Shown here: positions 2,557 to 53,017 of the stretch, piece after piece
Numbering within the stretch: position 1 is the first letter of the stretch
Layout: the number at the start of each line of letters is the position of its first letter
Assembly: GCA_030737835.1 (NCBI GenBank)
Contig: CM060847.1
Span: 16,406,656-16,470,655 of the forward strand
DNA: 64,000 bases
Origin: Acorus gramineus
Taxonomy: Eukaryota > Streptophyta > Magnoliopsida > Acorales > Acoraceae
Reading direction: 5' to 3'
Notes under the pieces: model-generated
Told to the model about the DNA's origin: nothing
The model's database searches: none
What the model saw: the letters and a program-made list of their open reading frames with translations, nothing else
Program-made: the position numbers and the translations under genes

Positions 2557-2772
2557 TCAGACGTCGGGAGCAGGTACAAGGAGTGGCGACGGGCACCTCT
2601 GTTTTCGCAGGTTCAAACAGAGGAGAACCCAACCCAGATTGAATGTCAAGAACGTCGTGACCCCATAAACCATGACAAGAACCTCCCCAAACAGGGTATC
2701 CTTCTTCGCCGCCGTGGGGAGGTTGAACAGGGCAGCTGCGGAGAGGGAGATGACCCAGAGAGCGAACTTCAT
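2557..2772 (-). CDS. Small hydrophobic membrane protein, one-unit family member (copy 1)
   Basis: The protein is 71 residues. It starts MKFALWVISLSAAALFNLP, continues with a short polar loop (TAAKKDTLFGE) and a long hydrophobic segment (VLVMVYGVTTFLTFNLGWVLLCL), and ends in a basic, proline-rich tail (RKQRCPSPLLVPAPDV). Two membrane segments are likely. ATG at 2772 is the first ATG after a TATA box at 2838-2845. Copies 2 and 4 contain two such modules in tandem; here the start matches their first module and the rest matches their second, so this is either a collapsed gene or the ancestral single unit. The 3' flank (about 2310-2550) is shared with the other copies. The family is unknown to me and the localisation is inferred. 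Confidence 0.65.
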   Translation of the reverse strand: MKFALWVISLSAAALFNLPTAAKKDTLFGEVLVMVYGVTTFLTFNLGWVLLCLNLRKQRCPSPLLVPAPDV

Positions 2773-2837
2773 GAGTGCTTGTGATGGGGAAGAGGAGGGG
2801 AGGAAATGTGGAGATGGATGGGTTTGCCAGATGAGAG

Positions 2838-2845
2838 TTTATATA
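2838..2845 (-). promoter_or_regulatory. TATA box of copy 1
   Basis: TATATAAA on the minus strand, 66 bases upstream of the ATG at 2772 with no ATG in between. Copies 2, 3 and 4 also have TATA-like elements upstream of their starts. Confidence 0.55.
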
Positions 2846-3059
2846 TCGTTGGGGTTGGGAAATGGGAACCAGATGAAAAAAATTCTACGAAGAAAATGAT
2901 ACGGGAATCCTTCGCCTGTCAATTTCGTTGTAATAAAGAAAAGGGACCACTTTGTCCCAGTTTCTTTATGTACAAGTATAGTCACAAAATTGGGCAAATG
3001 TTACCGATTATTCGGATATGTCAAGTACTCAAGTGTCTTTCAAATATAAAATAATAAAA

Positions 3060-4007
3060 ATGAGTTTGTTAGTGTCAATAACATTAGATATTTGACAAGT
3101 GCAACAACAATGCTTTATGTGCAAGTAGGACTCTAGAAACCTCACAAAACCAAGTCACCGACTCACATGCCTAAACCAAAAATATCTATTTTAATATTTT
3201 ATTTTAGATGTTCATCTATCCATTAATATTAAATTTTCTCTGTGTTGACAAAATATAATTTGATATTTTATGTCTACTCAATACTCATGGTTTATATCAT
3301 ATTTATGTGTCCCCGTATATTTTCCGTATCTATCCCGTATAATTCACGAATGTACACGCACCGTACCGAACTGAACACTAGCCGTATATTTGCCGTACAC
3401 GAACTTTGTTACTATGTGTACTACAATACATATAAAAAGGGACCACTTTGTCTCCTCTCATCTTGTTTATAATTAACAAACATTTCCGTATAATATTAGA
3501 GAACCTTCCTTCCTCTCTCATTCTTTAATATATTAATATTAAGATTAAAGCAGAGATGTAAGATGTAGTCTTTTGTATATTTGAGTTTCTCTTCTTCTCT
3601 CTCTTCTTCTTGCATTATCTTTTATATTTATTTTAGATTAGATTTTCTACTTAATTGAAAAAATAAAGAAAATTTTAGTGGAATAATAAAGAAAATTATT
3701 TGTTTTGGATGAATAAATCCATGTAACTTTGTATGGATGGGTTTGCAATATGTTTGATAACTATTCTAGGGTGGTGGTAGAATTGCTTATCAAGTTTAAT
3801 TATACCGATGGATAAAAATATCTTTCTATATTATTCTATTTTTTTTTAATCTTATCTAACAATCTCACACACTCCCCTAAAACATACATGTCATATCTAT
3901 TCATGCCCGCCCTGGGGATAGACCGATTAGGCCCCCATCCCAAACAAGGAAATAATAAATAAATATAAAAAATCATTTTTTTAAAATTAACATTTGGATA
4001 TATTTTT
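3060..4007. other. AT-rich intergenic DNA with CCGTA-rich patch
   Basis: No gene seen. At about 3308-3400 the motif CCGTA or CCGTATA recurs at least five times in 90 bases. An 18-base direct repeat (AAAAGGGACCACTTTGTC) lies near 2939 and near 3435, so the sequence between may be an insertion or a local duplication. I could not assign a family. Confidence 0.4.
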
Positions 4008-4262
4008 TTAGGGATTTTTATTTTTAAGTCCCCATAAATCATAAGATTTAGTGATCGATCCTTCAATTCTTCATATTTTGGTTTTAGTCCTCAGATTTAA
4101 AGGATATGTTCCTTTTTAGTCTTTGGGAGGGACCTATCCCTAAATTATTTGGTTTTGTTTTTAGTCCCTCTGAAGGACTAAAAAGGAACATATCCTTTTA
4201 AATATGAAGAAGTAAGGGATCGATCCCTATGGTATGTTTACAGGGAAACTTAAAAACCCATT
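4008..4262. repeat. Fold-back MITE, family F copy 2
   Basis: Begins near TTTTTAGGGATTTTTA and runs through AAGTCCCCATAAATCA, GTGATCGATCC and AAGGATATGTTCC. After the centre it returns through the complements (GGAACATATCC, GGGATCGATCCC, AAACTTAAAAACCC). The two arms pair over most of their length. There is no coding content. Confidence 0.7.
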
Positions 4263-4554
4263 TTTTTTAACGAAACACTTTTTTTTTTTTTTTATGTAAT
4301 CCTATTCTTTTTTTTTCTATGTTTAACTAATGTAAATTTTACGTTTATATGTTTTCAGATTTTTTATTTTCTTTTTTAAACAACTTATCTACTCCTTTAT
4401 TTTTGTGCGATTTTAATTTTTTCTTTTTTTTTTAATCTTGTTTTTGTTTTTTAGGGATTTAGTTTTTTATTTTATTTTAAATAAAATAATTTTACTTTAA
4501 CATATTGGTAGATAAGAATAAATTCCTAGAATTTTTATGAGTTTATTCATTTAA

Positions 4555-5345
4555 AAGAGTTTTATCTATTACTTACTTATTAAAAGAAATTTGTGACCTG
4601 GTATTTTCATTTCCCTTTTTATCCTTTAATCATTTGTTTAATTACAAATAGTAATAATAGATTTATTTAATATTTTTAAATTATTCAATGATATAGTCTT
4701 ATCTAATAAGATTATGATCAATAATAGATTTATTTAAATTTTTAAAATTTTAAATTATTCAATGATACAGTCTTATCTAATAAGATTATCTATTACTTAC
4801 TTATTAAAAGAATTATGTGACCCAGTATTTTCATTTCCCGTTTTATCCTTTAATCATTTGTTTAATTACTAATAGTAATAATAGATTTATTTAATATTTT
4901 TTAAATTTTAAATTATTCAATGATATAGTCTTATCTAATAAGATTATGATCAATAATAGATTTATTTAAATTTTAAAAATTTTAAATTATTCAATGATAC
5001 AGTCTTTTCTAATAAGATTATGATTAGTAAATAAATTTATTTAAATTTTAAAATTATTCAATTATATAATCTAATTTAATAAGATTATGATTTATTTAAT
5101 TACTAATAATAATAATGACATATTTATTTAAATTTAAAATTTTAAAATTTATCGATGATACAATTTAATCTAATAATAAAATTATAATATTATTTAATGT
5201 TACATTAATATATTTACATTTTAATTTTTAAAAAATATTCAATAATACAATCTGGTATAATAACATTATTATATATGATATGATTTAGATTGAGTAGAGA
5301 TAAAATAGGTTATGATATAAAGATATGATAAAACAATTGAGTAGA
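4555..5345. repeat. AT-rich repeat block with ~230-base internal duplication
   Basis: The segment starting TCTATTACTTACTTATTAAA at about 4566 is repeated from about 4791, including the following GTATTTTCATTTCCC and TTTAATCATTTGTTTAATTA. The motif CTTATCTAATAAGATTA then recurs several times. A third relative of the leading edge lies at about 6687-6780. A leading edge of this type is common at ends of plant Helitrons and MULEs, but I cannot assign it. No gene seen. Confidence 0.5.
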
Positions 5346-6116
5346 GCTAGATAGATAAGTTAAGATATAAAGATATATGTTTTGACTTAGTTTTAAGCCT
5401 CCACAATTCCCTCCCATTAGGTTTTCGTCCAAAAGTCCCATTATATTTTCTTCCCCTCTTTTGGACGAAAACCTAATGTGACTCCTTCATCATCTCGGGA
5501 TTTTTGGATGCTGGAAAAGACAGGGAAAACTGAACACGAAGCACAACAGGTTCTAAAGATGATGCAAAAACTATTCATTTTATCCACAAAGAGTTGATTT
5601 ATGTATATTTTTATACATGCATTATGATTAGAGGTTCCAACATATGGGAGTTTTGCTTGGTCTGATTGACTTCGAATTTTGATTTTGATTCAATTTGTTT
5701 TTGTGGTGGAACAATTTTAGTCTTACGGGAGCATGTGTATAATTGTTTTGTTAATTTGTTTGGTAGTTGGTGGATGATTGGGGACTGGTTTTGTTTTGGT
5801 TTTCAAAAATTTCAAGAGTTTGAAATTATATCCATCACCTAATTTTTTGTGGATTTCTACTTTGAAGTTTATATATTCTTGTTTATTTGGAAGCTGTTGA
5901 TATGCCTTTTTTTTTTTTTTTTTTGGCCAAAGTGCTTAAACACTAGAATACCCAATTCAACTCTTCCTCCTTTTTTTTTTTTTTCCATCGAATAATGCTT
6001 AGAAGTTATTTTTAGACTGTGAGAATCATTTTAGCTTTGTCACTGTTTTCTCTACCAAAAATGTAAACATGGTTTTGTTCTACATGATTGTAGGGTCCTA
6101 ATCTTATTATATTTAG
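5346..6116. other. Intergenic DNA without recognisable gene
   Basis: AT-rich sequence with poly(T) runs near 5909-5924 and 5972-5985. A short TTTTGGACGAAAACCTAAT motif near 5458 is the inverse of ATTAGGTTTTCGTCCAAAAG near 5417, giving a 19-20-base hairpin with a loop of about 20 bases. No coding frame supported. Confidence 0.4.
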
Positions 6117-6555
6117 GGGATTTTTAGTTTTAAGTATGTAAACATGTCTATTTAGGTATCGGTCCCTCACTTCTTCATATTTCTTTTAAGTCTCTCTATT
6201 CAACCGCCTATTTGGTTTTTAGTCCCCCCATCAAATTTCCGTCCATATATTTGTGAAATCTGATTTTATTTTTAAGTCCCTGTAAATTATATTATCTAGT
6301 GTTAAGTCTTTGTAAACTATGTTATTTAGTTATCAATCCCTCTAAAATATGAAGAAGGGAGGGACTAATCACTAAATAACATAATTTATAGGGACTTAAA
6401 AATAAATCATATTTTACAAATTAACTGGACAGACGTTTGACGGAGAGACTAAAAATCAAATAGGCGATTGAATATGGGGACTTGAAATGAAATATGAAGA
6501 ATGGATGGATCAATCCCTAAAGAAGCATGTTTATATGGATTTAAAAATAAAAAAT
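6117..6555. repeat. Nested fold-back MITE, family F copy 3
   Basis: An outer inverted repeat runs from GGGGATTTTTAGTTTTAAGT to the closing ATTTAAAAATAAAAAATTCC. It encloses a second inverted repeat (about 6262-6425) built from the same motifs (TTTTTAAGTCCCTGTAAAT ... TTTATAGGGACTTAAAAATA). It looks like one family member inside another, or an expanded version. Arms of about 120 and 75 bases could pair. No coding content. Confidence 0.65.
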
Positions 6556-6679
6556 TCCTATTTTTAACTTCTACCTAATCTGACCCCAATGAATTAATGC
6601 ATCCTATTTGATTTCTAAAGAATGTGCACACGTGGATTCATATATTACTATAATTGATTTTAAAGCATTTGTGTGTGTA

Positions 6680-6800
6680 TTATATCTATTACTTACTTAT
6701 TAAAAGAATTCTGTGATGCAGTATTTTCATTTTCCATTTTATCATTTAAACAATGGATCAATTACTAATATATCTATTTATTTAAATTTTAAAATTATTA
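6680..6800. repeat. Third copy of the AT-rich repeat edge
   Basis: TCTATTACTTACTTATTAAA followed by GTATTTTCATTTTCC and a TTACTAATA stretch matches the leading parts of the blocks at 4566 and 4791, with many point differences. It ends close to the left edge of the Copia fragment. Confidence 0.45.
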
Positions 6801-6917
6801 AAGATGACATTTTCTCTTTTACAATTACTCATTTATCCAAATCCTATTTTGTGGGGATCGAGTGACATTATAATTAATTAGTTGTGACTGTTTTGGATCT
6901 ATCAGATACTGTTTATT

Positions 6918-7749
6918 TTGATCTATTGCTGTGCAAGTACTATGGATTGCAGATATTGTCACTCCTTTGGTCATGTGACCCTCGATTGCCGCAAGTTGGC
7001 TAGAAAACGTGCTCGAGATGCCGCTTTCTCTTTATCAATCCAGTCGTCTACTCAATCTTCTCTTTGTCAGGATCAGATATGTACATCAATTGCACCTCGC
7101 GTTGCTTCTACTCAGTCACAGTTTACCACAACTCGCCTTATTGCACATTTAAAGGGGCTACAAGATCAATATCAACAGCTTTATGTTATGTTACGATCAT
7201 TGACTGGTATAGATCTTTCTGGTTCTGTTCAGTCTGCTTCTACTCCCGTACCAAGTATACCGATTACCTCATGGGTTTTTTATTCTGGGGCTTCCCATCA
7301 CATGACATCGGATGCATCGATTCTTGTTAATTGTATACCACTCCGTTCTCCTTCACTTATTCGCACTGCTGATGGTTCTCCTATGTCTGTCTCGAGCTCT
7401 GGCATTCTTTCTAATCATTCTCATCGATTTAATGTGCCAAATGTTTTGCATGTTCCTAAACTTTCCATGAGTTTGTTTTCTGTCAGTCAACTTGCTGACC
7501 TTGGTTATACGATCACATTTGATTCATCATCTTGTTCTGTTCAGGATCGACTTACTGGGAGACGGATTGGGACTGGGCGACGACAAGGTGGACTCTATTA
7601 CATGGATCAGCTTCATGTTCCTCTGCCTTCCGCTGCTTCTGTGCAGTTAGATACAAATTCCCCTTCCCCTTTCGATCTTTGGCATCGTCGTCTTGGTCAT
7701 TTGTCTCAGCCTAGACTCCGATATCTTGTTTTGGTACTCATTTTGATCA
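6918..7749 (+). mobile_element. Ty1/Copia gag-pol fragment (fossil)
   Basis: This is the end of gag, the protease and the start of the integrase region of a Copia retrotransposon. A CCHC zinc knuckle (CRYCHSFGHVTLDC) comes first. The protease region around SGASHHMT follows, then a stretch ending NVLHVPKLSMSLFSVSQLAD, and the integrase zinc-binding start (LWHRRLGHLS). The fragment lacks both LTRs, most of integrase and all of reverse transcriptase and RNase H. It stops abruptly at an inverted junction at 7731-7776. It is broken and looks old. Confidence 0.85.
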
Positions 7750-7776
7750 CGAAAAGCTGATCAAAATGAGTACCAA
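7731..7776. repeat. Perfect 19-base inverted repeat at element junction
   Basis: The arms are TTGGTACTCATTTTGATCA at 7731-7749 and its exact reverse complement at 7758-7776, with an 8-base loop. It sits where the plus-strand Copia fragment meets the minus-strand GC-rich leader and LTR piece. This suggests a fold-back or template-switch rearrangement joined two pieces head-to-head. Confidence 0.85.
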
Positions 7777-7789
7777 TATGACTATATTT

Positions 7790-8640
7790 GGAGTCCGAAT
7801 GAGCCCGTAGCGGCCGGATAAAGAAAATACCGAAAGATCGATGACGGAGCGACAAACGGGTCGGGCCGCGGATCCGGGTCGAGCCACGGACCCAGGTCGG
7901 GCAGCTGGCGCTGGAACCGGGTCAGGCGCTAGAGCCGGGTCGGCAGCTGGGCCGGGCGCTAGAGCCGGGTCGGCAGCTGGGCCAGGCGTGAGCGGGTGCT
8001 GGGCCGGGCGCGTGCGAGCGCGAAGCACGGGATCTCGGGACAAATTCCCGGAAGATCCGGGATGCTGTCCGGGACCGAATCCGGGACAGGATCCCAGGAA
8101 ATCCGGGCTGGTCGGCGCGGATCCGCGCTGATCACGCAATTCCGAGACGACGCGCAGGCAGACGCGGACGGTGCGCGGACGGTGTGCGGGCACTGGGGCG
8201 CGGGCACGGCGCGCGGACGGGCAGGGCGCGGAAGGGGCGCGGGCAGGGAGCCGGCAGGGCGCGGACTGGGCGCGCGTGGGGGACTGGGCGGGGTAGGGCG
8301 GCGCTAGACGGCGCAGCAGGGTGGCAGGGGCTGCGGCAGCGGCGGGGCAGCCGCTGCGGCAGGGGTTGCAGCAGGGCGGGGCAGCGACGGGGGCAGCGGA
8401 TCTGCGCGGGGCAGCGGCGGGGCTGCGCGGGACTGCGGCGGGGGCAGCGGATCTGCGCGGGGCTGCGGTGGGTGCAGCGGATCTGCGCGGGGCAGCGGTA
8501 GGGCTGCGGCGGGGGCAGCGGATCTGCGCGGGGCAACGGCGGGGCTGCGGCGGGGGCAGCGGATCTGCGCGGGGCAACCGCGGGGCTGCGGCAGGGGCAG
8601 CGGATAAGTGCGGGGCAGCGGTGGGGCTGCCCGCGGGTGC
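7790..8640. repeat. GC- and CpG-rich minisatellite tract
   Basis: At 8396-8640 a unit of roughly 40 bases starting GCGGATCTGCGCGGGG recurs at least five times, with variants. At 7923-7985 a 30-base unit (GGGCGCTAGAGCCGGGTCGG plus ten bases) occurs twice. Composition is far from the surrounding AT-rich DNA. Long alanine-, proline- and arginine-rich readings appear on both strands but have no domain and are compositional. The tract forms the leader of the minus-strand LTR element. Confidence 0.7.
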
Positions 8641-9028
8641 CACGAACAGAATGACGGACAGCGGAGCGTCGACGATCTCCGAACGGAGAGTATCGCCAAC
8701 AAAAAAATCAAGGAAAAAAATTGGATTCAAGCTCTGATACCATGTTAGAATATGAAAAGAATGAATCAAGAATCTTATTAGGGTTTGTATCCAATATTTA
8801 TAGTACAAAAAGGGGCAGCGGATAAGTGCGGGGCAGCCGCGGGGCTGCGCGCGGGTGACACGAACAGAACGACGGACAGCGGAGCGTGGACGATCTCCGA
8901 ACGGAGAGTATTGCCAACAAAAAAATCAAGGAAAAAAATTGGATTCAAGCTCTGATACCATGTTAGAATATGAAAAGAATGGATCAAGAATCTTATTAGG
9001 GTTTGTATCCAATATTTATAGTACAAAA
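8593..9028. repeat. 218-base tandem duplication within the LTR element
   Basis: 8593-8810 and 8811-9028 are near-identical direct repeats, each beginning AGGGGCAGCGGATAAGTG. Each contains the end of the GC-rich leader, the primer-binding site and the first part of the LTR. Only the right copy continues into a full LTR. The few differences suggest a fairly recent duplication. Confidence 0.85.
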
Positions 9029-9069
9029 AGGGAAACAAGGAAAAGACCAATCTACCCTTAACCCTAACA

Positions 9070-10942
9070 TATATATACATTTAACATTATTCACCGAGGA
9101 CAGAATGTCTTCACTCGCTTCCACATTTCTGGACACACTTTTTTAATCCATTACTCTTTTATTTCATGCTTTTATTATATATTTTGGAGTATGCATGATT
9201 TAATATATATTTAACGTGTATATTCTTGATGTGATAATTACAAGAATTTGTTTAACATGGATAAGTTACTTTCATTATCTTTTAGGCTATAAAAGCTAAA
9301 TAAGATTAATTGAATTAATTTTACAAATATTACATATCTTATTTAGTGAAAAAGAGTGCAAGAGTGCATGGGTTAGAGTGAACCTACTCTTGATTTTTTA
9401 AAGTATCTCTTCTATTCATTAATATGTGAGAGACGCCTCCTATATGATAGATACATTTCACCAAGCACAAAACATTTAAAAAAGAAGGCTTATACTAATA
9501 TAATCATGGGGCAATGTTTCTAGAAATTGTTTCTTCATAAACAAAAGCAGAAAGAAAACATGAAAATATTCCTAAAGATGACATGAAGGATTGTGCAGAA
9601 ATAATAAATCACATGGGTACTCTAAACTTACCTTGAAATGAATGTAAAAATCACTTAATTTTAAAGCAAAAATGATAATTTCGGAATGGGTAGATGAATG
9701 AAAATAGACATACAATATGGAATCCAAGTTAAAAAAAAAAACTATGAGAGGATTGAAGAAGTCATGACAATGGAATTCAAGTACAATCTATAAGTGAGTG
9801 TGAAAAAGTGAGCCATCAAGTATTCAAAGCATTAGAATATAAAATTAATTTAGGTAATGTTTATATAAACTTAATTAAGATAAACCATGGATGAAGCGTA
9901 AGAACATTGAACAAAATTGTAATTTCATCTAAGTGATGTTCCTTTTGCACTTTTTTAGTTGTTAAACACAATGAAAAATGTTAATGATAAACCTCCTATC
10001 CCTTTTGCGCTTTTTTTTACAAGAGAAAGTTACATATCTATTTGTATGTAAAATTGATAACACAGTTACATGGAAAATTGATTATATAGTGATAGGATAA
10101 GTTGCTGAAATTAGGTCCCCAAACATCAGACATTAAACAAATGAAAGTTTATGCATCAGAATCAAAATACATGAGCATCAACACTCCTCCAAGTAAACTA
10201 TGTATCAAAAGATAATGAGAAGGATATAAGATAATTGGGGGCAACAAAAACAGGAAGAAGAACTTCTCATGGAAGGTGAACCACTGGTCAGATGCAACAA
10301 TTATAAGGATAGAAAAAAAAAAAAACAAATCCATTAAGTAGGATAAAGGGAAAAGGACATACCTGATGCTGGTCTTGGAATTTGACAAGTCAGTGAGGGC
10401 CCCCATAGTCAATCCTACCGATGAGAAGAAGAAGAACAATTAATCTACCCAAACACAATGGTGCCTCCATGATGAGGCAAAGTGGCAAATAGAGAAAAAG
10501 AGAACTTCTGAGAGTCCTAGCAGTGAATATCAAATACTCATCGCCAATTCAACACAGAGAATCTGACTATCCATTCAATTATATATTCAGTTAGAAAATG
10601 ACCATATCATGAATAATAATTCTTACATTTGACAATAAAGGAACAGAGAATGAAACAGACTGTAGGAGAGAAACAACAGCACACAAATTATTGTTTGTAT
10701 GATATGATGAGCTAATGAACAGTACCCAAATTTACAATGGGTTCCACTGTCAATGATTTCTTCACTTGTGAATCTTCAAACCATATTTAATTGCATAACT
10801 ATTTGTTATTAGCATTCCCTCGGTTGCCAATTTGCCATGTGATTTGGTTTGTTCAGAATAGATTTTAGTGCATTCCGGATTTAAGCATATGAATACCTAC
10901 CAATCACATGCTCCATTCATCACAGACCAACATAACCTCACT
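9070..10942. other. AT-rich DNA, no supported gene
   Basis: The only gene-like hint is near 10364-10375, where the minus strand reads CATCAGGTATGT, a good plant splice donor, after a short stretch with ATG at about 10470. The frame there is not long enough to support an exon. No transposon ends seen. Confidence 0.4.
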
Positions 10943-11079
10943 AAATGAAAGAGGGAACCGTTGTATTAGTCCCAAATTCAGAAGATACCAGTGTCGAGCA
11001 TGGTACCGAGGCCCTTCCAGATGTTGCCTCCCCACGTTCTCTATCGCGAGCTTTTGGTGGTTCAGCATCTTCTGCCCAG
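10943..11079 (-). CDS. Possible C-terminal exon of an unidentified gene
   Basis: On the minus strand an acceptor-like TTTGCAACTGGGCAG precedes an open stretch that reads EDAEPPKARDRERGEATSG and then RASVPCSTLVSSEFGTNTT, ending VPSFI and a stop (TAG, 10943-10945). The region is richer in GC than its flanks and polar, like the disordered tail of a plant protein. I do not recognise it. No other exon of the same gene could be placed with confidence, so it could be a relic. Confidence 0.35.
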
Positions 11080-11159
11080 TTGCAAACCCACATAACAAAT
11101 CAAAACACAAATCCGACACACATAAAGCTACAGATCAAACCCAAACAAAGTGTTAAATC

Positions 11160-13090: not shown

Positions 13091-13109
13091 AATAGAGCAG
13101 GTAAGAATA

Positions 13110-14710: not shown

Positions 14711-14866
14711 ATCACCAAAAACAAATGAACCAAATTAGCTAAAACAACCAATCATGCCTTGATAAAACATTAAAAAATTTCAAAATTCTACCAGATCTAG
14801 CTTACTAAGTGTTAAATATTGGACAATGACATATTTAAACAAATAGACTAAATAGGATCATAACAA

Positions 14867-16588: not shown

Positions 16589-16704
16589 GATAGATTAAAA
16601 AACTAAAAATTTTAAAACTCAAATTAAACACATTCTTGACGTTTAGCTTTTCAAACCATCATTTTTCCTACTTAGACCAAAAAAAAAAAAAAAATCTTGC
16701 ACCT

Positions 16705-23048: not shown

Positions 23049-23501
23049 TCAGACCACGTCGAGGGCAGGTACAAGCAGTGGAGACGGGCACCTCTGTTTT
23101 AGCAAGTTGAAACAGAGGAGAAGAACCCAACCCAGATTGAATGTGAAGAACATCGTGACCCCATAAACCATGATAAGGTCCTCCCCAAACTGGGTCTCCT
23201 TCTTCGCCGTGGGGAGGTTGAAGAGTCCGCCCGCCGAGAGCGCCATCGCCCAGATTGCAAGCCTCGAGACTGCGTCGCGCGGTGGGGTCTGGCGGTGGTT
23301 CGGGGAAGGGGAAGGGGACGGGGGCGCTTTTTGGCGGAGCACGGAGACGGAGAGGAGGCACAGACCCACTACGAAGGCGGCGTAAACAATAACGGAATAT
23401 AAGATGATGAGGGTTCCGGAAGCAGGGATTTGCGGGGGAGACATGGGGAGGTTCAACAGGGCAGCTGCGGAGAGGAAGATGACGCAGAGAGCGAACTTCA
23501 T
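23049..23501 (-). CDS. Small hydrophobic membrane protein, two-unit family member (copy 2)
   Basis: The predicted protein has 150 residues from ATG at 23501. Unit 1 is MKFALCVIFLSAAALLNLPM, then a short loop and LIILYSVIVYAAFVVGLCLL. A proline- and serine-rich linker follows, then unit 2 (LAIWAMALSAGGLFNLPTAK ... LIMVYGVTMFFTFNLGWVLL). The tail is KQRCPSPLLVPALDVV. Four membrane segments are likely. The frame stays open upstream to 23654, but a TATA box at 23587-23594 lies inside that extension, so the inner ATG is the best start. The first ATG after the TATA box opens a short upstream frame (23498-23560). Function unknown to me. Confidence 0.7.
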   Translation of the reverse strand: MKFALCVIFLSAAALLNLPMSPPQIPASGTLIILYSVIVYAAFVVGLCLLSVSVLRQKAPPSPSPSPNHRQTPPRDAVSRLAIWAMALSAGGLFNLPTAKKETQFGEDLIMVYGVTMFFTFNLGWVLLLCFNLLKQRCPSPLLVPALDVV

Positions 23502-23560
23502 GAGTATGGTGTGGTGGTGGTGGGAAACGGGTCGGGTAAGAGAAGGGGAGGATAACGCAT
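23498..23560 (-). CDS. Upstream ORF overlapping the copy 2 start
   Basis: ATG at 23560 opens a 20-codon frame (MRYPPLLLPDPFPTTTTPYS) whose TGA (23498-23500) overlaps the main ATG (23499-23501) as ATGA. The same position in copy 4 holds an ATG that is in frame with the main protein, so a one-base difference turned a leader into an upstream frame. It may lower translation of copy 2 or make it depend on re-initiation. Confidence 0.5.
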   Translation of the reverse strand: MRYPPLLLPDPFPTTTTPYS

Positions 23561-23586
23561 GGCTCCGTTTGGGAGGGGTGTGAGAG

Positions 23587-23594
23587 TTTAAATA
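23587..23594 (-). promoter_or_regulatory. TATA box of copy 2
   Basis: TATTTAAA on the minus strand, 86 bases before the main ATG and 27 bases before the upstream ATG at 23560. The short distance to the upstream ATG suggests transcription could start close to it. Confidence 0.5.
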
Positions 23595-23671
23595 AGAGAT
23601 CGAGCTTTGATTGGGCTTCAAAGTCAACAGTTTCATTATTAAAAAAAGTGTCATGACAATGTGCGGTTGGG

Positions 23672-24080
23672 ATTATGTCTCGATCCGGTGTATCAACATT
23701 GGATCGGATGATACTTAAAATCAGGGAAACAAATTTGTTTAAAACAGATTTGTTTGTTAGGAGGTTACTTAGAGAGAAAAGAAGTTATTTATTTATATAA
23801 ATATCCTTTAGGATTTCAAGGTAAAACTTGGCATGGCTAGCATAGAAAAAAATGTAGAGATCCATACGAGAGAGGTTGAGAGGGTTCAAGAGAGGTAACC
23901 CCATGAAAGAGAGTTTGTAAGGCTTTTTTGTATCTCAACTATTATAGTGGATTCTCAGTTTTTGTCCTGTGGATATAGGCCTAGGCCGAACCACGTATTT
24001 TTGTGTTCTTCGTGTGATGGTATTTCGTTCTTATGTATGATCTCGCATTTCATCGACGACTTCTGCGTATCTGTTTCCCC
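23672..24080 (+). mobile_element. Copia-type solo LTR or LTR fragment (fossil)
   Basis: It begins TGTCTCGATCCGGTGTATCA, like the 3' LTR at 35485 (ATGTCTCAGATCCGGTGTAC). Near 23970-24010 it has GTGGATATAGGCCTAGGCCG and AACCACGTATTTTTGTGTTC, matching GTGGATGTAGAGCTTAGGGT and AACCACGTAAATCTGTGTTC of that LTR. No internal region is attached. It sits just upstream of copy 2. It looks old. Confidence 0.55.
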
Positions 24081-32180: not shown

Positions 32181-32549
32181 TCATGGAGACTGAAAACTAA
32201 TTTATTGATATTGGCAAGCAAAGATTTAAATACATCCATGAGATACTGCATCCAAGAGATACTATTACATTACAGGACACATATATTATTATTCATACAA
32301 AGTACTCGAGTTTAAAAAGTACAGAACCTTTTTTCATATAAAGTTTCCAACAACAAATAAAATAGCTACAGTAAGACCATAGGGAGTATGATCTCCACGA
32401 CAATAGACAATAAGCTGTTCAAGATTTTCAAATGGCTTCCACCATGGCGAGAGATATCTTAAGAGCCACAGAAAACGTCGCCAGACTAAGTTCGACCCAC
32501 ATCAGGCATCGGGACAGGTACAAGGAGTACTGGAGATCGGTACCCCTGT

Positions 32550-33003
32550 TCACAGGTTCAAACAGAGGAGGACCCAACCCAGATTGAATGTCAAGATCAT
32601 CGTGACGGCATAAACCATGACAAGGATCTCCCCAAACTGGGTCTCCTCCTTCGCTGTGGGGAGGTTGAAGAGGCCGCCCGCTGAGAGAGCCATCGCCCAA
32701 ATTGCAAGCCTCAAGATTGTTTCGCCCGGTGGTGTCTGGCAGCGGTTCAGGGATGGGAACGGTGGTGCTATTCGGCGGAGCAGGGACACAGAGAGGAGGG
32801 ACAGACGCACAATGAATGCGGCGTAAACGATGACGGAATAGACGATGATGATGATCGTCCAAGGAAGAAATTCAGGGGGGAGACATGGGGAGGTTCAACA
32901 GGGCAGCTGTGGAGAGGGAGATGACACAGAGAGCGAACTTTAGGAGTGCAAGGTGCGGTGATGGTGGGGGAGGGGTTGGGGAAGAGGAGGGGATGAGAAG
33001 CAT
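32550..33003 (-). pseudogene. Small hydrophobic membrane protein family, pseudogene (copy 3)
   Basis: The ATG at 33003 starts MLLIPSSSPTPPPPSPHLAL, then LKFALCVISLSTAALLNLPM and SPP, and stops at TGA (32872-32874), where copy 4 has a glutamine codon. A one-base shift follows. The second part then reads YSVIVYAAFIVRLSLLSVSL and LAIWAMALSAGGLFNLPTAK ... LVMVYAVTMILTFNLGWVLL in the other frame, ending early at CLNL. The inner methionine used by copies 1 and 2 is a leucine codon here. A TATA-like element (33090-33097) remains. The full two-unit layout is still visible, so decay is recent compared with the duplication. Confidence 0.7.
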
Positions 33004-39959: not shown

Positions 39960-39992
39960 AGTGACCTAAAAAGGGGTGTCTTGAGGACGGCA

Positions 39993-40026
<34 letters not shown>

Positions 40027-41300: not shown

Positions 41301-41305
41301 GAAAA

Positions 41306-43541: not shown

Positions 43542-43632
43542 GATTTGACTCGGGGTTCCCGCTACTTGTACACTGCATATGAATAATTTGGTAATATATT
43601 CTAATGCTGAGTCACTGATTCACGTTCTCTAA

Positions 43633-44062: not shown

Positions 44063-44353
44063 AGTCGACCTAAACTTTGACGGATTTATGTGAATAATAT
44101 TTAAATAATTGACTTTTATAAACTTTATAGACTTTTTATAAATGATGTAAAGTCCTTTTTTTTTTTTACAAATATAAAATGTGAGCCATGAGGCTCTTCA
44201 CCAAAAAAAAAAAAAAATTTCAATTCAATTATAATTATCAGGATCTGTGTTTGGTGAAATTTTTTTTAAATAGCCGTTCATGTTTCACTACATCCAAGAC
44301 ATCTCTTTTTATCAAATTTTGCCCACACTTAATTTTCTAGAAGATAATGTTAT

Positions 44354-44705
44354 TTTTTTAAGATAAACGATGAGCGACTGCCTTAATTTTATTTAAAGAA
44401 ATACAGCTTCCAAAGAAAATACAATGAACCTAGATAGACAACAAAAACTATCTAACACCCGGACCTCTTAAGTAAAAGAGCAATCTACTCAGAAGGTCTA
44501 GGCCCAAAACAAACCAACATGCTATTCCTCAATACACAAAATAACCCCCCTGAAAAGACACCCGACGTGCCCTTGCACAATTCACTCCCCAGTTCTGAAT
44601 CAAATACATTACCATTTCCCAAATATTTTCCTCGTAGACCTTGACACCCCGAAAGAGCAAATGATTCCTAGCGATCCGCAGAGACCATAAGACCGCCGGG
44701 ACTAA
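44354..44705 (-). mobile_element. 5'-truncated LINE fragment
   Basis: A minus-strand insert whose end encodes VLWSLRIARNHLLFRGVKVY, EENIWEMVMYLIQNWG and a short tail before a stop. It then has a 3' UTR (AAATAAAATTAAGGCAGTCG) and a short poly(A). The target duplication is AAGATAATGTTAT (44341-44353) and AATATAATGTTAT (44706-44718), with one change. Duplicon B has the uninterrupted site near 54911. Same family as the LINE at 25795-26443. Confidence 0.75.
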
Positions 44706-44971
44706 AATATAATGTTATATAGCATGTTTTTCAGCTTCAATTTCAATCTACACATTTTAAATTTTTAAAAATAATATACATTATCTAATGAGGTACATCA
44801 TTTTCAAAAAATGAAACATATACTTCAATTAATAATATGTTTATAGGAAATGTAAAATTCTTTTAGCAAAACATATACCACGCTAATGTGAACATATGTT
44901 ATAAATCGAACTTTAGTTAAATTGATAAGCATCTCTCATCTCTGTAAACAGGGGCGGAGGCACGTTAGAGC

Positions 44972-44995
44972 GAGTGGGGGCAGCTGCCCCCACTC
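44972..44995. repeat. 24-base perfect palindrome next to the hAT left end
   Basis: GAGTGGGGGCAG (44972-44983) is followed at once by its exact reverse complement. It starts 23 bases inside the element. It may be a transposase-binding or cruciform-forming sub-terminal site. Confidence 0.8.
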
Positions 44996-45775
44996 AGTTT
45001 TTTTTTTTTTTTAATTTATATGTATACTCAAAAACACTTAATCACCCTCCCTGACCTTTAACATTATCCAGAATATCCTAACTTCAACTCTTCCATACCA
45101 CGGTTCAACAAATACATTTTGAAAATCATCCACAACCGTCTGATCCGATGCACCCAACTTCTCTTCGTCCCCACTCACAATCACCCGACCCCACCAAATA
45201 TGTTGTGAAAAAATGAACTGAAACTTTTTTTTCTTCAATTTTCATTCATCCCACTGTCCTTCGCCCCTCTGGTCTCCCCGCCGCCCCTCCGACCTCCGGT
45301 CTCCCCGCACTGCAGCGGTGCCGCCCCTCTGGTCTCCCCATGCTAGTAACTCGGTAAGTAACTCGGTAACTCGGTAATATCCCTCTCTCTCTCTCTCTCT
45401 CTCTCTTAGTTGATTTAGGGCTTAGTATGATTTGATTTAGGGTTTAGTATGATTTGATTTAGCGTTTAATTTTTTTTTGTTGGTTCATTAGGTAGAATAT
45501 GTGTTGATAGATTTGAAATATTAAAACTTTATATACAATGAGCAATGAATGTTTAAAATAATAGGTTTTTTTGAGGGGGATATACTCATAAACCTCAAAT
45601 AAGAATAGGAATTGGGACAAGATTTGTATCTATCATGTTTGGTTTCCAAAAAAGAAGATGATATGAGCTTCTCTTTTTTCTTTTATATTTTTATTATCAC
45701 AATCTCATTATGCCTTTTTTTATTGTTTGATTAAAATTTAAATATTATAGAGATTTATGTCTTTTTGAAACAGTT

Positions 45776-48084
45776 ATGAATAAATACTTGAAAAGAAAGT
45801 CAAAATTTGAATCGTCACCTCCTTCAGAAAGAGATGATAATTCATCAAAACAAAGTGTGTAGAAATCAATTTGACAGATCTTCCTGCAGATCCAGGGTTA
45901 CGATCACGAATTACGGATTACAATCCTAATGATAGAGACCCAATTCGTAGAGCATATTTGCAAAGGGGTCCTTGTCAACCTTGTGGTCATAATTTTCCAC
46001 AAAGAAAGTTTGGATAATCATCACGGCGATGTAATCAGGCTTGGTTTAAAGAATTTGGCAACTAGTTAGAGTATAGCATAACAAAAGATGCTGCATTTTG
46101 CCTATGTTGTTATCTTTTTAAAGAAGATATTGGAGAACAAGGAGGTGGTGAGTCTTTTGTTGGTGAAGGTTTTTCAAATTGGAAGAAGAAGGAAAGATTA
46201 CAAATTCATGTAGGAGGTCCCAATAGTTCTCATAATCAAGCTTGGAGTAAATGTCAAGATTTACTAAATCAAAAGCAAAGTATACAAACAGTTTTTTCCA
46301 AGCAGTCGGACCAAGCTCGAAGTGAATACCAAATCCGCTTAAATGCATCAATTGATTGTATTCGATTTCTTCTACAACAAGGGCTTGCATTTCGTGGTCA
46401 TGATGAATCCGAAAATTCAAGTAATCAAGGAAATTTTCTTTAGCTTTTGGGATTTCTTGCAAATCATAATGAGAATGTGCAAGCCGTCACGTTGAAAAAT
46501 GCTCCTGAAAATCTTAAGTTGACCGCACCTGATATCCAGAAGGACATTGTAAATGCCATTGCTGTTGAAACCATCAATTCTATTTCTAGAGATATTGGTG
46601 ATGCATTTTTTTCCATTCTTGTTGATGAATCTTGTGACATATCAACCAAGGAGCAAATGGCTGTTGCATTGCGATATGTTGACAAGAAGGGGTACATGGT
46701 TGAGCATTTTCTTGGTATTGAGCACGTTAGTAATACTAGTGCTCTCTCACTCAAGGCGACAATCGAAGATTTGTTTTCTAGACATAGATTAAGCATGTCT
46801 AGGTTGCGTGGGCAAGGTTACGACGGGGCTAGTAATATGCAAGGTGAATTCAATGGCCTTAAGACGCTTGTAATGAATGAGAATCCATGTGCATATTTCA
46901 TTCATTGTTTTGCTCATCAATTACAATTAGCTCTCGTGGCCGTGGCAAAGAATCATAATCAAATTTCTATGCTCTTCAGTTTGGTTACTAATGTGGTGAA
47001 TGTTGTTGGAGCATCATGTAAACGTCAAATATTCTTAGAAAAAAACATGTTACAAGAGTTGTTGAAGCACTCAATAAAGGAGAGCTTTCAAGTGGGCAAG
47101 GCCTTAATCAAGAAATTATTCTCAAACGGTCAAGTGATACGCATTGGGGCTCAAACTATGGTACTTTGATAAGCTTGATTAGTATGTTCTCATCTGTCAT
47201 TGAAGTGTTTGAAATTATTTTTGAAGATGGTTCAAATTCAGAACAAAGAGAGGAAGCAGATATGTTATTGGACTCCATGCATTCTTTTGAATTCATATTT
47301 AACCTTCATTTGTGATTCCTCATTTGACGAGTTCTATTTTGGGAATCACAAATGAATTATCACAAACATTACAAAAGAAAGATCAAGATATTGTGAATGC
47401 CATGACTTTAGTTCAAGTATCAAAGCGGCGACTCCAAATGATGAGGGAGAGTGGATGGAGTTCTCTACTTGATGATGTATCTTCCTTTTCTGAAAAACAT
47501 GATATTAGTGTTCCTAATATGGATGACACATTTTTAGGTCGAGGACGACCAAGGCGTAAAGCACAAGAGATGACAAACTTGCACCATTATCGTGTTGAGT
47601 TATTCTATGTTGTCATAGATATGCAACTTCAAGAGCTAAATAGTCGTTTCACAGAGTCAAATACAGAATTGCTTCTTTGTGTGGCATGTTTGAATCCATT
47701 TAATTCATTCTCTTCCTTTGATAAGTACAAATTGATCCGCCTCGCCCAATTTTATCCTAATGAATTTCTTTGTTAGAGCTTATGACATTGTATGATCAAC
47801 TTGATAATTATATTGTTGATGTGCGCTCTACCGATGAGTTTTCAAGATTAAAGGGTATTGGTGATCTAGCTCAAACAATGGTCAAAACTGGGAGAGACAT
47901 AATATATCCATTAGTTTACTTGCTTGTGACTTTGGCATTGATTCTACCAGTTGCAACTGCTAGTGTTGAGAGAGCATTTTCAGCTATGAAGATTGTAAAG
48001 AACCGATTACGCAACCGCATGGGTGATCAAAGGATGAATGATGGCTTGATTGCATATTTAGAGAGATATTTTTTGGGATATTGA
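45776..48084 (+). pseudogene. hAT transposase, TTF-type zinc finger / ZMYM1-like (decayed)
   Basis: The start MNKYLKRKSKFESSPPSERD is followed by a stop. A second frame from 45862 reads EINLTDLPADPGLRSRITDY and the TTF zinc-finger region (GPCQPCGHNFPQRKFG ... DAAFCLCCYLFK), with in-frame stops at 46015, 46063 and 46441. The core follows: ILVDESCDISTKEQMAVALR (first catalytic Asp) and LRGQGYDGASNMQGEFNG (second). After a shift near 47090, SSDTHWGSNYGTLISL follows, then the middle region (47312-47776). Last comes the hAT dimerisation region with ASVERAFSAMKIVKNRLRNR (catalytic Glu). All main parts are present, but at least three stops and three frame changes make it inactive. This transposase family is common in plants. 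Confidence 0.85.
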
Positions 48085-48762
48085 CAACGAGGCTATCATT
48101 CAACGCTTCCAAAGCATGAAAACTCGTCGGGGTCAATTATAAAGATGCCAAATAGAATTTTTTTTGGAAATGTAGATAACATATTATACTTTTTTGTAAT
48201 TCTGAATTAATGTAAAGGGTGTAACTAGGCAATTTTTTATACACACCTTATAGTTTCAGTTTAATTATTGTAAAAGGTGTAATTTATCTCTTTTTTTGTA
48301 TACACCTTACAATATTTGGTTTGGTCCTTTTTTGTACTTCATGAATTTTTATATCATATAGATTTGTTGAAACTGTAAATGAGTTTCAATGACTTTACTT
48401 TTTGTACTTGAACTATTGTAAAGAGTGTATTTTTTTTTTTTTTTGGTACATCCCTTAGCTTCAAGTTTTTAGAAAAAAATTTAAAGATTATAGTTAAAAG
48501 TCCCCCCCCCCCCCCAAAATGAATTCCTGGCTCTGCCACTGTCTGTAAAAGAGGTCAACGGATCAAATTTTAAAAAATATTATTTTTCAAAATATATATA
48601 TATATATATAAATATATGCTCCAATGATTTTACTTTCAAGAAACTTCCGATTATACAACGTACTTATTTAACTTATCCCATTTTTTGTCACGCCCTAGTT
48701 GAATTGAAATTCTAAATTGTGTGGGTCCATGTCACGTGACTTTTTTTTAAAAAAAAAATTAG

Positions 48763-48984
48763 TTGTCAAAGGATTTGTTTGCTCTAACAGCTCTATTCTT
48801 TTTAAAAAAAGAAAAAGAAAATGGATGCCCACATCCTATTCAGATAAGATGGCCTGAAGGGAAATACAAGCGATTGGTCATAGTAGGTGAGGATCTTATC
48901 AAAGCACCAACCAAAGATCTATTTCACTGGCACAAAGCATGTGAGATGCTTTTTGAAAGGGTAAAGCGTGGGAGATTTTTTTAA
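48763..48984 (+). other. Short open frame in duplicon A, partly kept in B
   Basis: From about 48823 the frame reads GCPHPIQIRWPEGKYKRLVI, VGEDLIKAPTKDLFHWHKAC and EMLFERVKRGRFF. In duplicon B (about 55360-55455) KDLFHWHNACEMFFERVK is recognisable after a local shift. The composition looks protein-like, but I recognise no family. It could be an exon relic carried by the duplication. Confidence 0.25.
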
Positions 48985-49200
48985 AATTTTTTTTTTTATG
49001 AAAATCAAAAAAGACGATTATAAAATCTCTAAATCTCCTAAAGTCTCTATCTTTTGTTCTCGTTAATAATTTTATTCCTTATTAACATCCCGTCAATGCA
49101 TGAAACATATTCCATTAATATTTTGTTTAGTTAACGAAATCTTTTAAAACAATATTCGAATAAGTTTATGAAAAACTAATAAAATCTAAAGTAGTCAAAA

Positions 49201-50144
49201 TATTTTGAAAAAAGCTATTCACAACCAATCCCTCAATTTTTTTCAATCCATATATAAATGATATCATAATTTTTTTAATAATGATTAAATAAATAATTTG
49301 TAAAATTTATAATAAAATTATACATAAAGGAGATATGTTACCACTGAAAATGAGTTTTTTTACATATATACCCTTCAACCAATCTTATATTGTAAAAATA
49401 CTCTATTTAAAACTCTAAAACTAACAATACTGCTATAGGTGAGTATTAATGATATTATCCAATTTATACATATACAAAAAAAGACAAAGAAATGAATTGT
49501 TTATGAAATTCTTTAAAAATTTGTAACTTTTCAAGTATAACTCTGATTGAGGTGATTAATAACTCGTTGAAAATATCTTTTCGATATATATTTATGAAAA
49601 ATGACTATTTCACGATAAAAAGCGAAATTAAATGTTGAAACTCATATTTGACCCGAAATTAATTATTTATCACATATATTTCATGATTATCTTATTTATC
49701 TCAATATAAATCTAATAAAAATAATAACAATAAAAAAATGATTATGTGACATGATCACCACCATTCATCTAAATTGGAGAATTAGATGAAAATTAAGGAT
49801 GGCGTTACAAAAGAGTGTTGATACACTTAATTCAATTTGTAGTCTCATTTGTAATGTGTTGGAAAAAATTTAGAGTGCAATGAAGGGTCGAAATTGATGG
49901 TTTTGATACACATAACGAGTACGCTTTCTTTAAAGCGTAATTTGCTCCTACTTGAAAAAAAGTTGCTGCAAGAATTTGATGCAAATCGCTTCGAATACAA
50001 TAAAGCCCCATGGAATTGTGTTTTGCAAAATGAGGAATCCACAAAGAACTTGTAGTACTTGACCTTTGACACAAAGAAGTATTGTATGAATGGAGAAGAG
50101 TTGATGTGAAAAGAGGGCTTCTCAACACATAAAAAATTTTGGAT
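49201..50144. other. AT-rich DNA, no supported gene
   Basis: Minus-strand frames of 75-98 codons at 49832-50128 lack start context and domains. The sequence 50100-50144 continues at 50983 beyond the LINE insert. Confidence 0.35.
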
Positions 50145-50160
50145 GGTTTATGGAGACTTT

Positions 50161-50966
50161 TTTTTAAAGAAAATATAGATGTTTGCTACCTGATTTCATT
50201 AACTGAATTAGAATTACAAAGTCCGAAAGGAGGGAGAGTAGAAACATAAGACAGGATAAAGAATCTAGTTAGGAACAAAAGCACCGAGAACGGCTCACAA
50301 CGCCCTTCCTTCGGGTTTGAAGAGTCATCTAACCAGCAGGAGGAGCACGTGCTCGATCACCCCTCAATGTGTAGACTCCCATTGCTGAATTGAATGTCCT
50401 TTGCCTTCGCTATATATCGCCCCCAATCCTGCATACATCCTTGAAACATCTCCCACATTTTCTTGATACATACATGCGCCATTGAACACCGTATCATTTC
50501 GAGTCTTCCAGATCGTCCACGCTGCCTCTGGTATAATGGTCTGCCATGGCACTGCAGCCAAGCTGTTGTCGTCCGCCCTCTTAAGCGCTTTCCCGGCTTC
50601 CCAGAGTTTTTCAATGGTGTTACAAGGCATCCGAATCCCGGTTTTCTCCACCCAAAACACTCTTGTTACTGGACATCCACAGAACAAGTGTTGGACCATT
50701 TCCTCCATTGTCGAGCAAAGGGGACACTCCATTGGGTTGTTTGGTGCCCACTTAGCACAGTACGCCCTCGTGAGGAGACGCTCTAAGTACAAAAGCCACA
50801 TGAACACCTTGATTTTTAAAGGGATCTTCTACCTCCATGTTTGTTTGTACTTCGGGTTTGAAATGTACCCCCGAGCCAATGAATCTTGTCTTCCTCTGCC
50901 TCTTGCATGGACACATGGCCTAAATGCTCCAACAGTGCCATGAATTTTGTTGTCTCCAACAGCCCG
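50161..50966 (-). mobile_element. 5'-truncated LINE with perfect 16-base target duplication
   Basis: The minus strand encodes KIPLKIKVFMWLLYLERLLT, then CPLCSTMEEMVQHLFCGCPV, the zinc-binding end of a LINE polymerase, and AAWTIWKTRNDTVFNG near the C-terminus. A 3' UTR and short poly(A) (poly(T) at 50161-50165) follow. Both flanks are GGTTTATGGAGACTTT (50145-50160 and 50967-50982). The perfect duplication and the 147-codon open stretch suggest a recent insertion. Confidence 0.85.
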
Positions 50967-50982
50967 GGTTTATGGAGACTTT

Positions 50983-52190
50983 GGAGAGAGAGGATAGGAT
51001 GACTTAAGAGGACTATGGAGAGAGAGGAGTTTGTGTGTTCAAATGATCACTTTCACCCCTTTCACCCCTTCACACTCTCTCAACCGACTCTTCAACCAAG
51101 TCTATTGATACTCCAATGGATGTCCAAATTCCAGTGACACTCGAATGGATGTCATAGACTCATTCTGTCTCTACAAATGTTTCTCTATAGCATCCTTATT
51201 TTTAAAGTAACTAATGACAATTAAATTATTATTAATTATTAATTATTAAATAGGCCTAATTCTATCTCAATTAAATTAAATTAAATTAATTAAATTAAAT
51301 AGGCCTAATGGTCCAAGCCCATTAATAAATGGATCTTGGTAAGCCCATTCCTAGAAGATCCATTTAGGATAACTGTAAAAGCTATTAAATACTCTTTTTC
51401 ATTCTTTTATTTTTTCGATGTGGGACTAAAGGTGCCCCACACAAAGTATCATATTAAACTATATTTAATAAACACCCAGTTGATTTCTCAACATAATCCA
51501 CAAGCAATCTTTCAACCACATATACGTTGTGATAGTGCAATGCATACTGCACTATGTAGTGTATGAAATTTTTTTTTATTAGTTTAAAAGATACATCGAT
51601 CTTAGTGCATACTTTACTTTGTATAATAATAAGTATTTCAATGAACGATTGTATAATTAAAAAAAATGATAAGTACTGTGTGCGGGATTGCACATGGGGC
51701 ATGATTATATCAAAAGAATAGAGATGGATAGTTTTAACTGTAACTACAAGTAAATACTGTTGTACGTAACATATGAAATTTTTAGGTTGATCACGATAAG
51801 TTGTGAATAAAAAATAAATAAGACATAAATAAATATTTATAAAAAATAAAAAATTTACATGTTAGTCCATGATTTACAAGAGATAAGGATCTGGGATATC
51901 TATACCAGGTTATTATATTTATTTTGGCAACTATATTCATATATTCCTCAAGAACAAATTGTTGTTTTGTTTTTTCATCTTTATTTTATCATATTCCGCT
52001 TCTATTTTTCTATTTAAACATGACATTTTGTAGGTCATATCCACTTGTCCTTACATTATTTTGCCCGCCTATCTTCCATGGGGCCAATAGGGACAATTTG
52101 ATATGTGATTGAGTTGTTAATTTTCAGGAGTCAGACACTCATTTACTATAACTATAAGGATTATCATAAAGCATGGTAAAATGCATTATT
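50983..52190. other. Intergenic DNA, no supported gene
   Basis: AT-rich sequence with TTAATTATTAATTATTAAAT and ATTAAATTAAATTAAAT simple repeats near 51228-51300. AAATAGGCCTAAT occurs twice there. TTTTCGATGTGGGACTAAAG near 51413 is of a kind often seen in plant LTRs, but no element border was found. Confidence 0.35.
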
Positions 52191-52199
52191 AGCATAAAA

Positions 52200-52531
52200 T
52201 TGTGATTTGTGTCAACAAAAATTTCATGGAGACAGAAATCGCACAAGGTGGAAGACTTGCACCAAGAAAAAAAAAAAAAATTGATTCCGGCAGCATAAAA
52301 CAAAGATTACACAGAATCCATGACACATATATTATTATTTCTACAAAGTACTCAAAAAGTATGAAAAGAACAAACCAATTCAACAAAAGATATGACATAG
52401 ATATATATATATAGTAAGATAAAAGGGAGGAGGATATCCTGCACACGCACACGCACGTATAAGTATATAACCTATATATTCAAGTGGGTCCCCCACCATA
52501 GCAAACGTTGCCAGACCAAGTTCGACCCACA
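52200..52531 (-). other. Shared 3' flank of copy 4
   Basis: Blocks such as CAAAGATTACACAGAATCCA, AAAGTACTCAAAAAGTATGA and AGATAAAAGGGAGGAGGAT match the 3' flanks of copies 1 and 2 and, more weakly, copy 3. This shows that the duplication unit is longer than the coding region. A poly(A) stretch at about 52266-52280 interrupts the match and may be a small insertion. Confidence 0.6.
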
Positions 52532-53017
52532 TCAGGCGTCAGGGGAGACGGGACACTGTTTTCGCTGGTTCAAACAGAGGAGAACCAAACCCATATTGAA
52601 TGTCAAGAACATCGTGAGAGCATAAACCATGACAAGAACCTCCCCAAACAGGGTCTCCATTGTCGCCGTAGGGAGGTTGAAGAGTGCCCCAGCCGAGATC
52701 GCGATCGCCCAGATCGCAAGCCCCAAGACTGCCTCGCGCGGTGGGGTGTGGTGGCGGTTCGGGGAAGGGGAAGGAGACGGTGGCGCTGTTCGGCGGAGCA
52801 GGGAGACAGAGAGGAGGCACAGACCCACAACGAATGCGGCGTAAATGATGACGGAATAGATGATGAGGAAGATTTCCGAAGCCGGGATTTGCGGGGGAGA
52901 CATGGGGAGGTTCAACAGGGCAGCCGTGGAGAGGGAAATGAGCCAGAGAGCGAACTTCATTAGTGCTTTTGTGGTTGTGGTGGGAGACGGCTTGGGGAAG
53001 AGGAGGGAAAAGGCCAT
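52532..53017 (-). CDS. Small hydrophobic membrane protein, two-unit family member (copy 4)
   Basis: The predicted protein has 161 residues. ATG at 53017 is the first ATG after the TATA box at 53141-53147 and has an excellent context (AACCATGGCC). The leader MAFSLLFPKPSPTTTTKAL comes before unit 1 (MKFALWLISLSTAALLNLPM ... IIYSVIIYAAFVVGLCLLSV). A Pro/Ser-rich linker (TAPPSPSPSPNRHHTPPRE) follows, then unit 2 (LAIWAIAISAGALFNLPTAT ... VMVYALTMFLTFNMGLVLLC). The short tail is NQRKQCPVSPDA. Four membrane segments and a cytosolic or lumenal linker are inferred. The inner ATG at 52960 would give 142 residues. It is the most complete member. Role unknown to me. Confidence 0.75.
   Translation of the reverse strand: MAFSLLFPKPSPTTTTKALMKFALWLISLSTAALLNLPMSPPQIPASEIFLIIYSVIIYAAFVVGLCLLSVSLLRRTAPPSPSPSPNRHHTPPREAVLGLAIWAIAISAGALFNLPTATMETLFGEVLVMVYALTMFLTFNMGLVLLCLNQRKQCPVSPDA

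Follow-up and report, generated by a model that had tools for sequence, protein, structure and literature searches.

The window analysed here is a stretch of 64,000 nucleotides (nt) of the Acorus gramineus genome (assembly GCA_030737835.1, 398.6 Mb), namely positions 16,406,656 to 16,470,655 of contig CM060847.1 (C1:16406656-16470655, hereafter C1), and it holds four related loci for small hydrophobic proteins built from a two-helix module (Table 1). The original prediction had described four related minus-strand loci with products of 71 to 161 residues; position and strand were confirmed for all four, which form part of a tandem array on C1, and the size range held for copy 1 (71 amino acids) and copy 4 (161 amino acids) but not for copy 2, whose open reading frame (ORF) reaches 201 amino acids from its first ATG. 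The first 51 residues of that longer frame are doubtful, since on contig C98 the open frame of its counterpart starts no earlier than the MKFAL methionine (150 amino acids). Three copies had likewise been taken to be open; copy 3, however, has lost its start codon, carries an in-frame TGA and is a pseudogene.

The four loci and their relatives in the genome

A search of the same genome with copy 4 returned 47 matches, and searches with other members added more. The 61 places listed merge to 60 (22 on C11, 20 on C1, seven each on C2 and C98, two on C132 and one each on C107 and C8); these counts are lower bounds, with overlapping frames of one place entered once and with loci L001-L008 left out because they duplicate parts of the window or of L009-L014. 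The dispersed host gene family that had been proposed thus has homologues beyond the window, at about 60 places in this genome, ten of them on small contigs of alternate-haplotype appearance. Judged by sequence, C98 appears to represent the alternate haplotype of the window region. Its seven copies keep the order and strand seen on C1, and the two contigs are 94.2% identical across 3.5 kb surrounding copy 4 and 96.0% identical across 2.1 kb at copy 2; for the surroundings of copy 1 the values are 95.5% and 92.6%. In addition, the interval of C1 from 16.54 to 16.575 Mb recurs in reversed order on C2 at 27.22-27.26 Mb, with 95.8-98.3% identity in the best blocks of the four pairs compared.

Table 1. 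Positions within the window of the four copies, their modules and third-helix remnants, followed by the genomic locations of two groups of longer genes. i-E, independent E-value; remnant scores are set against the best shuffled score.
Feature	Position	Strand	Remarks
Copy 1	2557..2772	-	71-amino-acid single-hairpin ORF; start of module 1 joined in frame to end of module 2
Copy 1, third-helix remnant	2522..2566	-	RRLMWVEPGLAPFAI; +2 frame, overlaps copy 1 stop; score 58 vs 34
Copy 2	23049..23501	-	two-module ORF, 150 amino acids from MKFAL methionine
Copy 2, longer frame	23049-23654	-	201 amino acids from first ATG
Copy 2, module 1 hairpin	23313..23504	-	profile match, residues 51-114, i-E 7.1e-12
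Copy 2, module 2 hairpin	23067..23273	-	profile match, residues 128-196, i-E 1.3e-13
Copy 2, 5' flank	23662..24030	-	diverges from relatives; partly dispersed repeat, common to L061, L038 and L035
Copy 3	32550..32944 (about)	-	two-module pseudogene
Copy 3, remnant of full third helix	32431..32505	-	LMWVELSLATFSVALKISLAMVEAI; downstream of copy 3; score 95 vs 37
Copy 4	52532..53017	-	two-module ORF, 161 amino acids; inner MKFAL methionine at 52960 (141 amino acids)
Copy 4, module 1 hairpin	52772..52969	-	profile match, residues 17-82, i-E 3.8e-14
Copy 4, module 2 hairpin	52544..52732	-	profile match, residues 96-158, i-E 1.4e-17
Copy 4, third-helix remnant	52497..52538	-	RLMWVELGLATFAM; +2 frame, overlaps copy 4 stop; score 68 vs 33
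Five-helix genes L082, L084, L086 and kin	C1 20.3 and 26.0-26.3 Mb; C11 5.7-6.1 Mb; C116		
L085/L088 family	C32, C102, C11		

Module duplication, gene layouts and the third helix

The family is built on a two-helix hairpin whose first helix ends in a conserved S-A-G-x-L-x-N-L-P motif; the tryptophan that had been placed at the opening of this motif is not constant. The internal duplication ascribed to these hydrophobic proteins lies far above chance, both by profile match, wherein each copy 4 module alone matches the profile of the single-module genes (Table 1), and by hhalign, wherein module 1 aligns with module 2 (12 rows each) at E = 7.2e-11 and a probability of 97.1%, against E = 0.26 for module 2 reversed. 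Genes of the type of copies 2-4 (doubles) consist of two hairpins; single-module genes (singles), which are about 89-124 amino acids long and lie on C1, C2 and C107 as well as C11, carry one hairpin and, after it, a Pro/Ser linker that leads into a third helix. By a hydropathy rule, three helices are called in six of six C1/C2/C107 singles, in all nine genes of the C11b set and in one of the three genes of the C11a set (C11 4483/4597/4970). In profile comparisons, the singles match module 1 at E = 2e-18 and module 2 at E = 2.7e-15, and the C11b genes match the singles at E = 1.3e-7, module 2 at E = 5e-9 and module 1 at just E = 4.3e-4, with reversed controls at E 0.013 to 0.51. As a tree of 49 rows places module 1 in one group and module 2 in another (support 99/99 and 94/86, respectively), a single doubling event predating the spread of the doubles is indicated; module 1 joins the singles (95/90) in this tree, for which the program warns of long branches and whose root is arbitrary. 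The two-module layout is one form of several, probably derived from a three-helix single module.

What became of the third helix can be followed past the stop codons. A third-helix-like stretch scoring clearly above 100 shuffles occurs at or beyond the stop in 19 of 22 double-type loci, a set that includes several near-copies or alleles and hence does not represent independent events. Fourteen of these stretches lie in the +2 frame across the stop, three lie in frame behind it and one lies downstream of copy 3; the last belongs to L020 (C1:16522695), the sole locus with the third helix still in frame, whose hydropathy peaks at the retained helix, yet for which three helices are called. The score is marginal in L022 (35 vs a shuffled 34), and in copy 2 and its C98 form it is no higher than in shuffles (34 vs 35 and 34). 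From these stretches, the C-terminal helix appears to have been lost by frameshift or stop in most doubles.

Copy 1 is an in-frame recombination product, with a 5' portion from module 1 and a 3' portion from module 2, by which a double returned to one hairpin. Its first 58 bases match module 1 (94.8% in copy 2, 91.4% in copy 4), its bases from 14 onward match module 2 (84.2% and 82.0%, respectively), and the switch point falls where both modules share the sequence coding for the L-F/L-N-L-P motif.

A query with a C11 gene also gave weak matches to other genes, several of them longer (L082, L084 and L086), the genome matches being reciprocal yet weak. These longer genes comprise two N-terminal helices and then a three-helix domain; the number of helices called is five for L082 and L084, four for both L086 and L083, and three for L081. 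Their C-terminal domain is homologous to the window module (hhalign with SBM, the profile of the pooled family, E = 1.6e-11, probability 97.4%, reversed 0.14; C11 set Bb, E = 8.9e-11, reversed 0.34). In contrast, their N-terminal hairpin is unlike either module of the doubles, which carry a duplicate of the module's own hairpin in its place; the proposal that module 1 is this N-terminal (A) hairpin was rejected, because the match of module 1 is to the B hairpin (E = 4.8e-7) and not to A5 (A5 vs M1 E = 0.14, reversed 0.19). The window family is one branch of a wider gene set in its own genome. The L085/L088 family has the same N-terminal hairpin as the five-helix genes (E = 4.1e-18, reversed 0.32) but differs in its C-terminal half, which has no match to the window module (B5 E = 0.19, reversed 0.45); this family is probably plant-wide and unnamed, and it may correspond to PANTHER PTHR46610, 'OS05G0181300 protein', a name taken from rice Os05g0181300. 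That rice gene has an entry as 'Unknown', at 2.6-fold, in one table of glutamate-responsive root genes (PMC5316172), a hint that is weak at best.

The earlier statement that no known family can be assigned stands after Pfam scans of 14 proteins of the wider family (none over the curated cut-off, the best being DUF998 at 18.3 bits vs a cut-off of 30), an NCBIfam scan of two proteins (nothing over the cut-off) and PDB sequence searches (no convincing E-value). Likewise, six motif strings of the family had no occurrence in the literature searched. A prokaryotic or viral origin was considered and rejected, as none of 103 pattern stretches in prokaryote contigs and none of 51 in viral contigs was confirmed, an absence that is expected for a plant family.

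Selection, haplotype variation and neighbouring features

The selection tests covered 12 double-type loci, with near-copies and some alleles left out. Equal synonymous and non-synonymous divergence between copies, one of the outcomes that the original prediction had set against itself, was not seen: the NG86 ratio of non-synonymous to synonymous differences per site (pN/pS), pooled over the doubles, is 0.62, with all 66 pairs below 1, and the MGK codon model rejects omega = 1 with a doubled log-likelihood difference (2dlnL) of 29.0, the kappa of the null having been taken from a grid. The singles (pN/pS 0.44; 12 of 15 pairs below 1, the other three with a synonymous divergence, dS, of 0) and the C11b genes (pN/pS 0.57; 33 of 36 pairs below 1) give 2dlnL values of 12.3 and 10.9, respectively. 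When omega values of 0.35, 0.5, 0.7 and 1.0 were compared, with the tree fixed and kappa set to 2, the best fit came from 0.5, both for the double as a whole and for each of its modules. Purifying selection on the doubles is moderate, with omega near 0.5.

Copies 1 and 2 show zero coding differences between haplotypes, the 216 nt of copy 1 and the 453 nt of copy 2 being identical to their C98 counterparts. Conversion or shared ancestry explains this identity as well as selection does, because the near-identical block includes the pseudogene copy 3. Differences between C1 and C98 are near zero at window positions 32200-32900 and 2100-2800, blocks that are centred on copies, including the pseudogene, and have more diverged flanks; gene conversion is a possible cause. 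Elsewhere in the array, L012 (C1:16386400-16393500) comprises three near-copies of a double, one of them inverted (the inverted pair being 99.3% alike over 1.35 kb), and the one counterpart found on C98 suggests a copy-number difference between haplotypes. Intactness also seems from the sequences to differ, given that L025, the C98 counterpart of L022 (the double at C1:16475711), has a broken reading frame while the DNA of the two is 96.9% identical.

Similarity upstream of the doubles is short. A TATA-like box lies no more than 250 nt from the inner ATG in 11 of the 12 copies examined, and none was found within 250 nt of the MKFAL ATG of window copy 2, whose match to relatives (L016) stops about 170 nt upstream of that ATG, at the start of a dispersed repeat. 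Because the upstream match is cut by the repeat and the box is missing, copy 2 may be poorly expressed in the window haplotype.

Several features of the window lie apart from the family. At positions 55833-61932 a unit of about 2.15 kb is repeated three times in tandem, with similarity between the copies mostly at 90-97%, and each unit holds a Pro/Ser-rich ORF of 76 amino acids, the first of which has no Pfam match. Pieces of a hAT-type transposase (DUF4371 and the hAT dimerisation domain) lie in separate frames at 46657-48084, a Copia-type gag-pol fragment (Pol_BBD, gag_pre-integrase) at 6942-7760, and a zf-RVT domain, the remnant of a non-LTR (long terminal repeat) reverse transcriptase, at 50364-50801. 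Lastly, positions 8376-8661 form a G+C-rich tandem repeat, its unit about 41 nt long, amid A+T-rich DNA.

Predicted topology, proposed role and competing readings

In the eight of 12 doubles for which four helices are called, net charge is +1 to +6 for the central linker, compared with +1 to -3 for the flanking loops, and by the positive-inside rule this arginine-rich Pro/Ser linker is most likely cytosolic; the C-terminal tail of the doubles would then lie on the cytosolic side and the NLP loops on the opposite face. Given that no enzyme, receptor or channel motif was found in any profile scan, a role as adaptor or subunit is the likeliest mode of action. The proteins would be non-enzymatic and membrane-embedded, with the small residues (S/A/G) of S-A-G-x-L packing helices against partner membrane proteins or against each other and with the basic Pro/Ser linker docking cytosolic partners. 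The genes turn over by tandem duplication, gene fusion, module recombination and pseudogenisation. The setting, judged only from the turnover of the array, is most likely a stress or biotic response. Taken together, the loci are read as a plant family of small integral membrane proteins that is kept by selection, turns over fast and acts as adaptor or subunit in a stress or biotic setting, a composite proposal that is given about an even chance of being correct.

A number of results weigh against this proposal. The constraint is modest overall, and pN/pS in the C11a set is 0.90 (two of three pairs below 1). Copy 4 may be drifting, since its two haplotype forms, on C1 and C98, differ by four synonymous and 11 non-synonymous changes, with dS and non-synonymous divergence (dN) both 0.032. 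The hydropathy rule calls four helices in eight of 12 doubles and three in the other four, including the one that retains the third helix. AlphaFold2 gave poor models of the three window proteins (mean pLDDT 54.4), with low-confidence helices at residues 12-35, 46-77, 94-113 and 123-154 of copy 4, and Foldseek found no PDB match to the model under E 3.6 (best E 3.6), so that structural support for any function is absent.

The alternative that survives best, although it is judged unlikely, is that the doubles are decaying relics, wherein an old three-helix gene underwent duplication and fusion and is at present on its way to loss, with the open frames of the window copies as short, functionless survivals. 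The pseudogene copy 3, the origin of copy 1 as a deletion product, the out-of-frame helix 3 in most doubles, the broken frame of L025 relative to L022, the shared upstream region gone from copy 2 and the near-equality of dN and dS between the forms of copy 4 all agree with such decay; the constraint on both modules over the tree, with the 2dlnL of 29.0 against omega = 1, and the many copies with open two-module frames speak against it.

An improbable alternative takes the array as a haplotype-variable recognition locus, with the proteins as variable membrane partners in immunity or pollen-pistil recognition. Duplication of the three-helix module would have rebuilt a five-helix layout, the last helix would then have been dropped in most copies, moving the C-terminus to the cytosol, and alleles would vary in copy number, intactness, promoters and tails.

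Spread as retrogenes or within a transposon, in place of ordinary tandem duplication, is about as improbable. It would suit the single-exon frames, a window rich in transposon pieces and the roughly gene-length homology of the window copies: the match between copies 2 and 4 extends beyond the gene by about 47 nt on the upstream side (counted from the MKFAL ATG) and by about 176 nt on the downstream side, and copies 3 and 4 share 38 nt upstream. The original argument for duplication at the DNA level from shared flanks is thus weak for the window copies, whose shared flanks are short, though recent copies elsewhere in the array are clearly duplicated at the DNA level (L010/L011, 95.8% over 3.5 kb; L018/L019, 98.1% over 5.6 kb), and this common flanking DNA, found also at L012, together with arrays of one main orientation, speaks for tandem duplication.

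Least probable of all is kinship with the PGG domain (PF13962), a three-helix membrane domain of plant ankyrin-repeat proteins, whose short relatives these proteins would then be, acting in salicylate-type defence signalling: both are small multi-helix membrane domains with a Pro/Gly loop after helix 1, the order of features is alike by eye (helix, Pro/Gly loop, helix, linker, helix) and set Bb is co-linear with PGG at an hhalign score of 19.7 (E = 0.0072; reversed controls 10.9 and 11.2), but the probability of that match is just 5.4%, the other profiles do not clearly exceed their reversed controls (forward vs reversed, Sg 14.3 vs 18.4, SB 14.8 vs 13.8 and 11.3, SBM 18.1 vs 12.7 and 11.4; B5 forward E 0.085, worse than reversed 0.029), and the Pfam scans gave no PGG match, with 28 PGG matches in the same genome as positive control, which leaves PGG homology unsupported by these scans and by most of the comparisons with reversed controls.

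If expressed, the genes under the preferred reading, that of a selected family of small membrane proteins, would represent a sizeable plant membrane-protein family that lacks a Pfam model. One genome displays the steps between layouts, from single module to double, through helix loss, and back to a single hairpin. For annotation, the warning is that copies with different helix numbers and a different side for the C-terminus belong to one family; again if expressed, the array would offer a clean case of membrane topology evolving within a tandem array.

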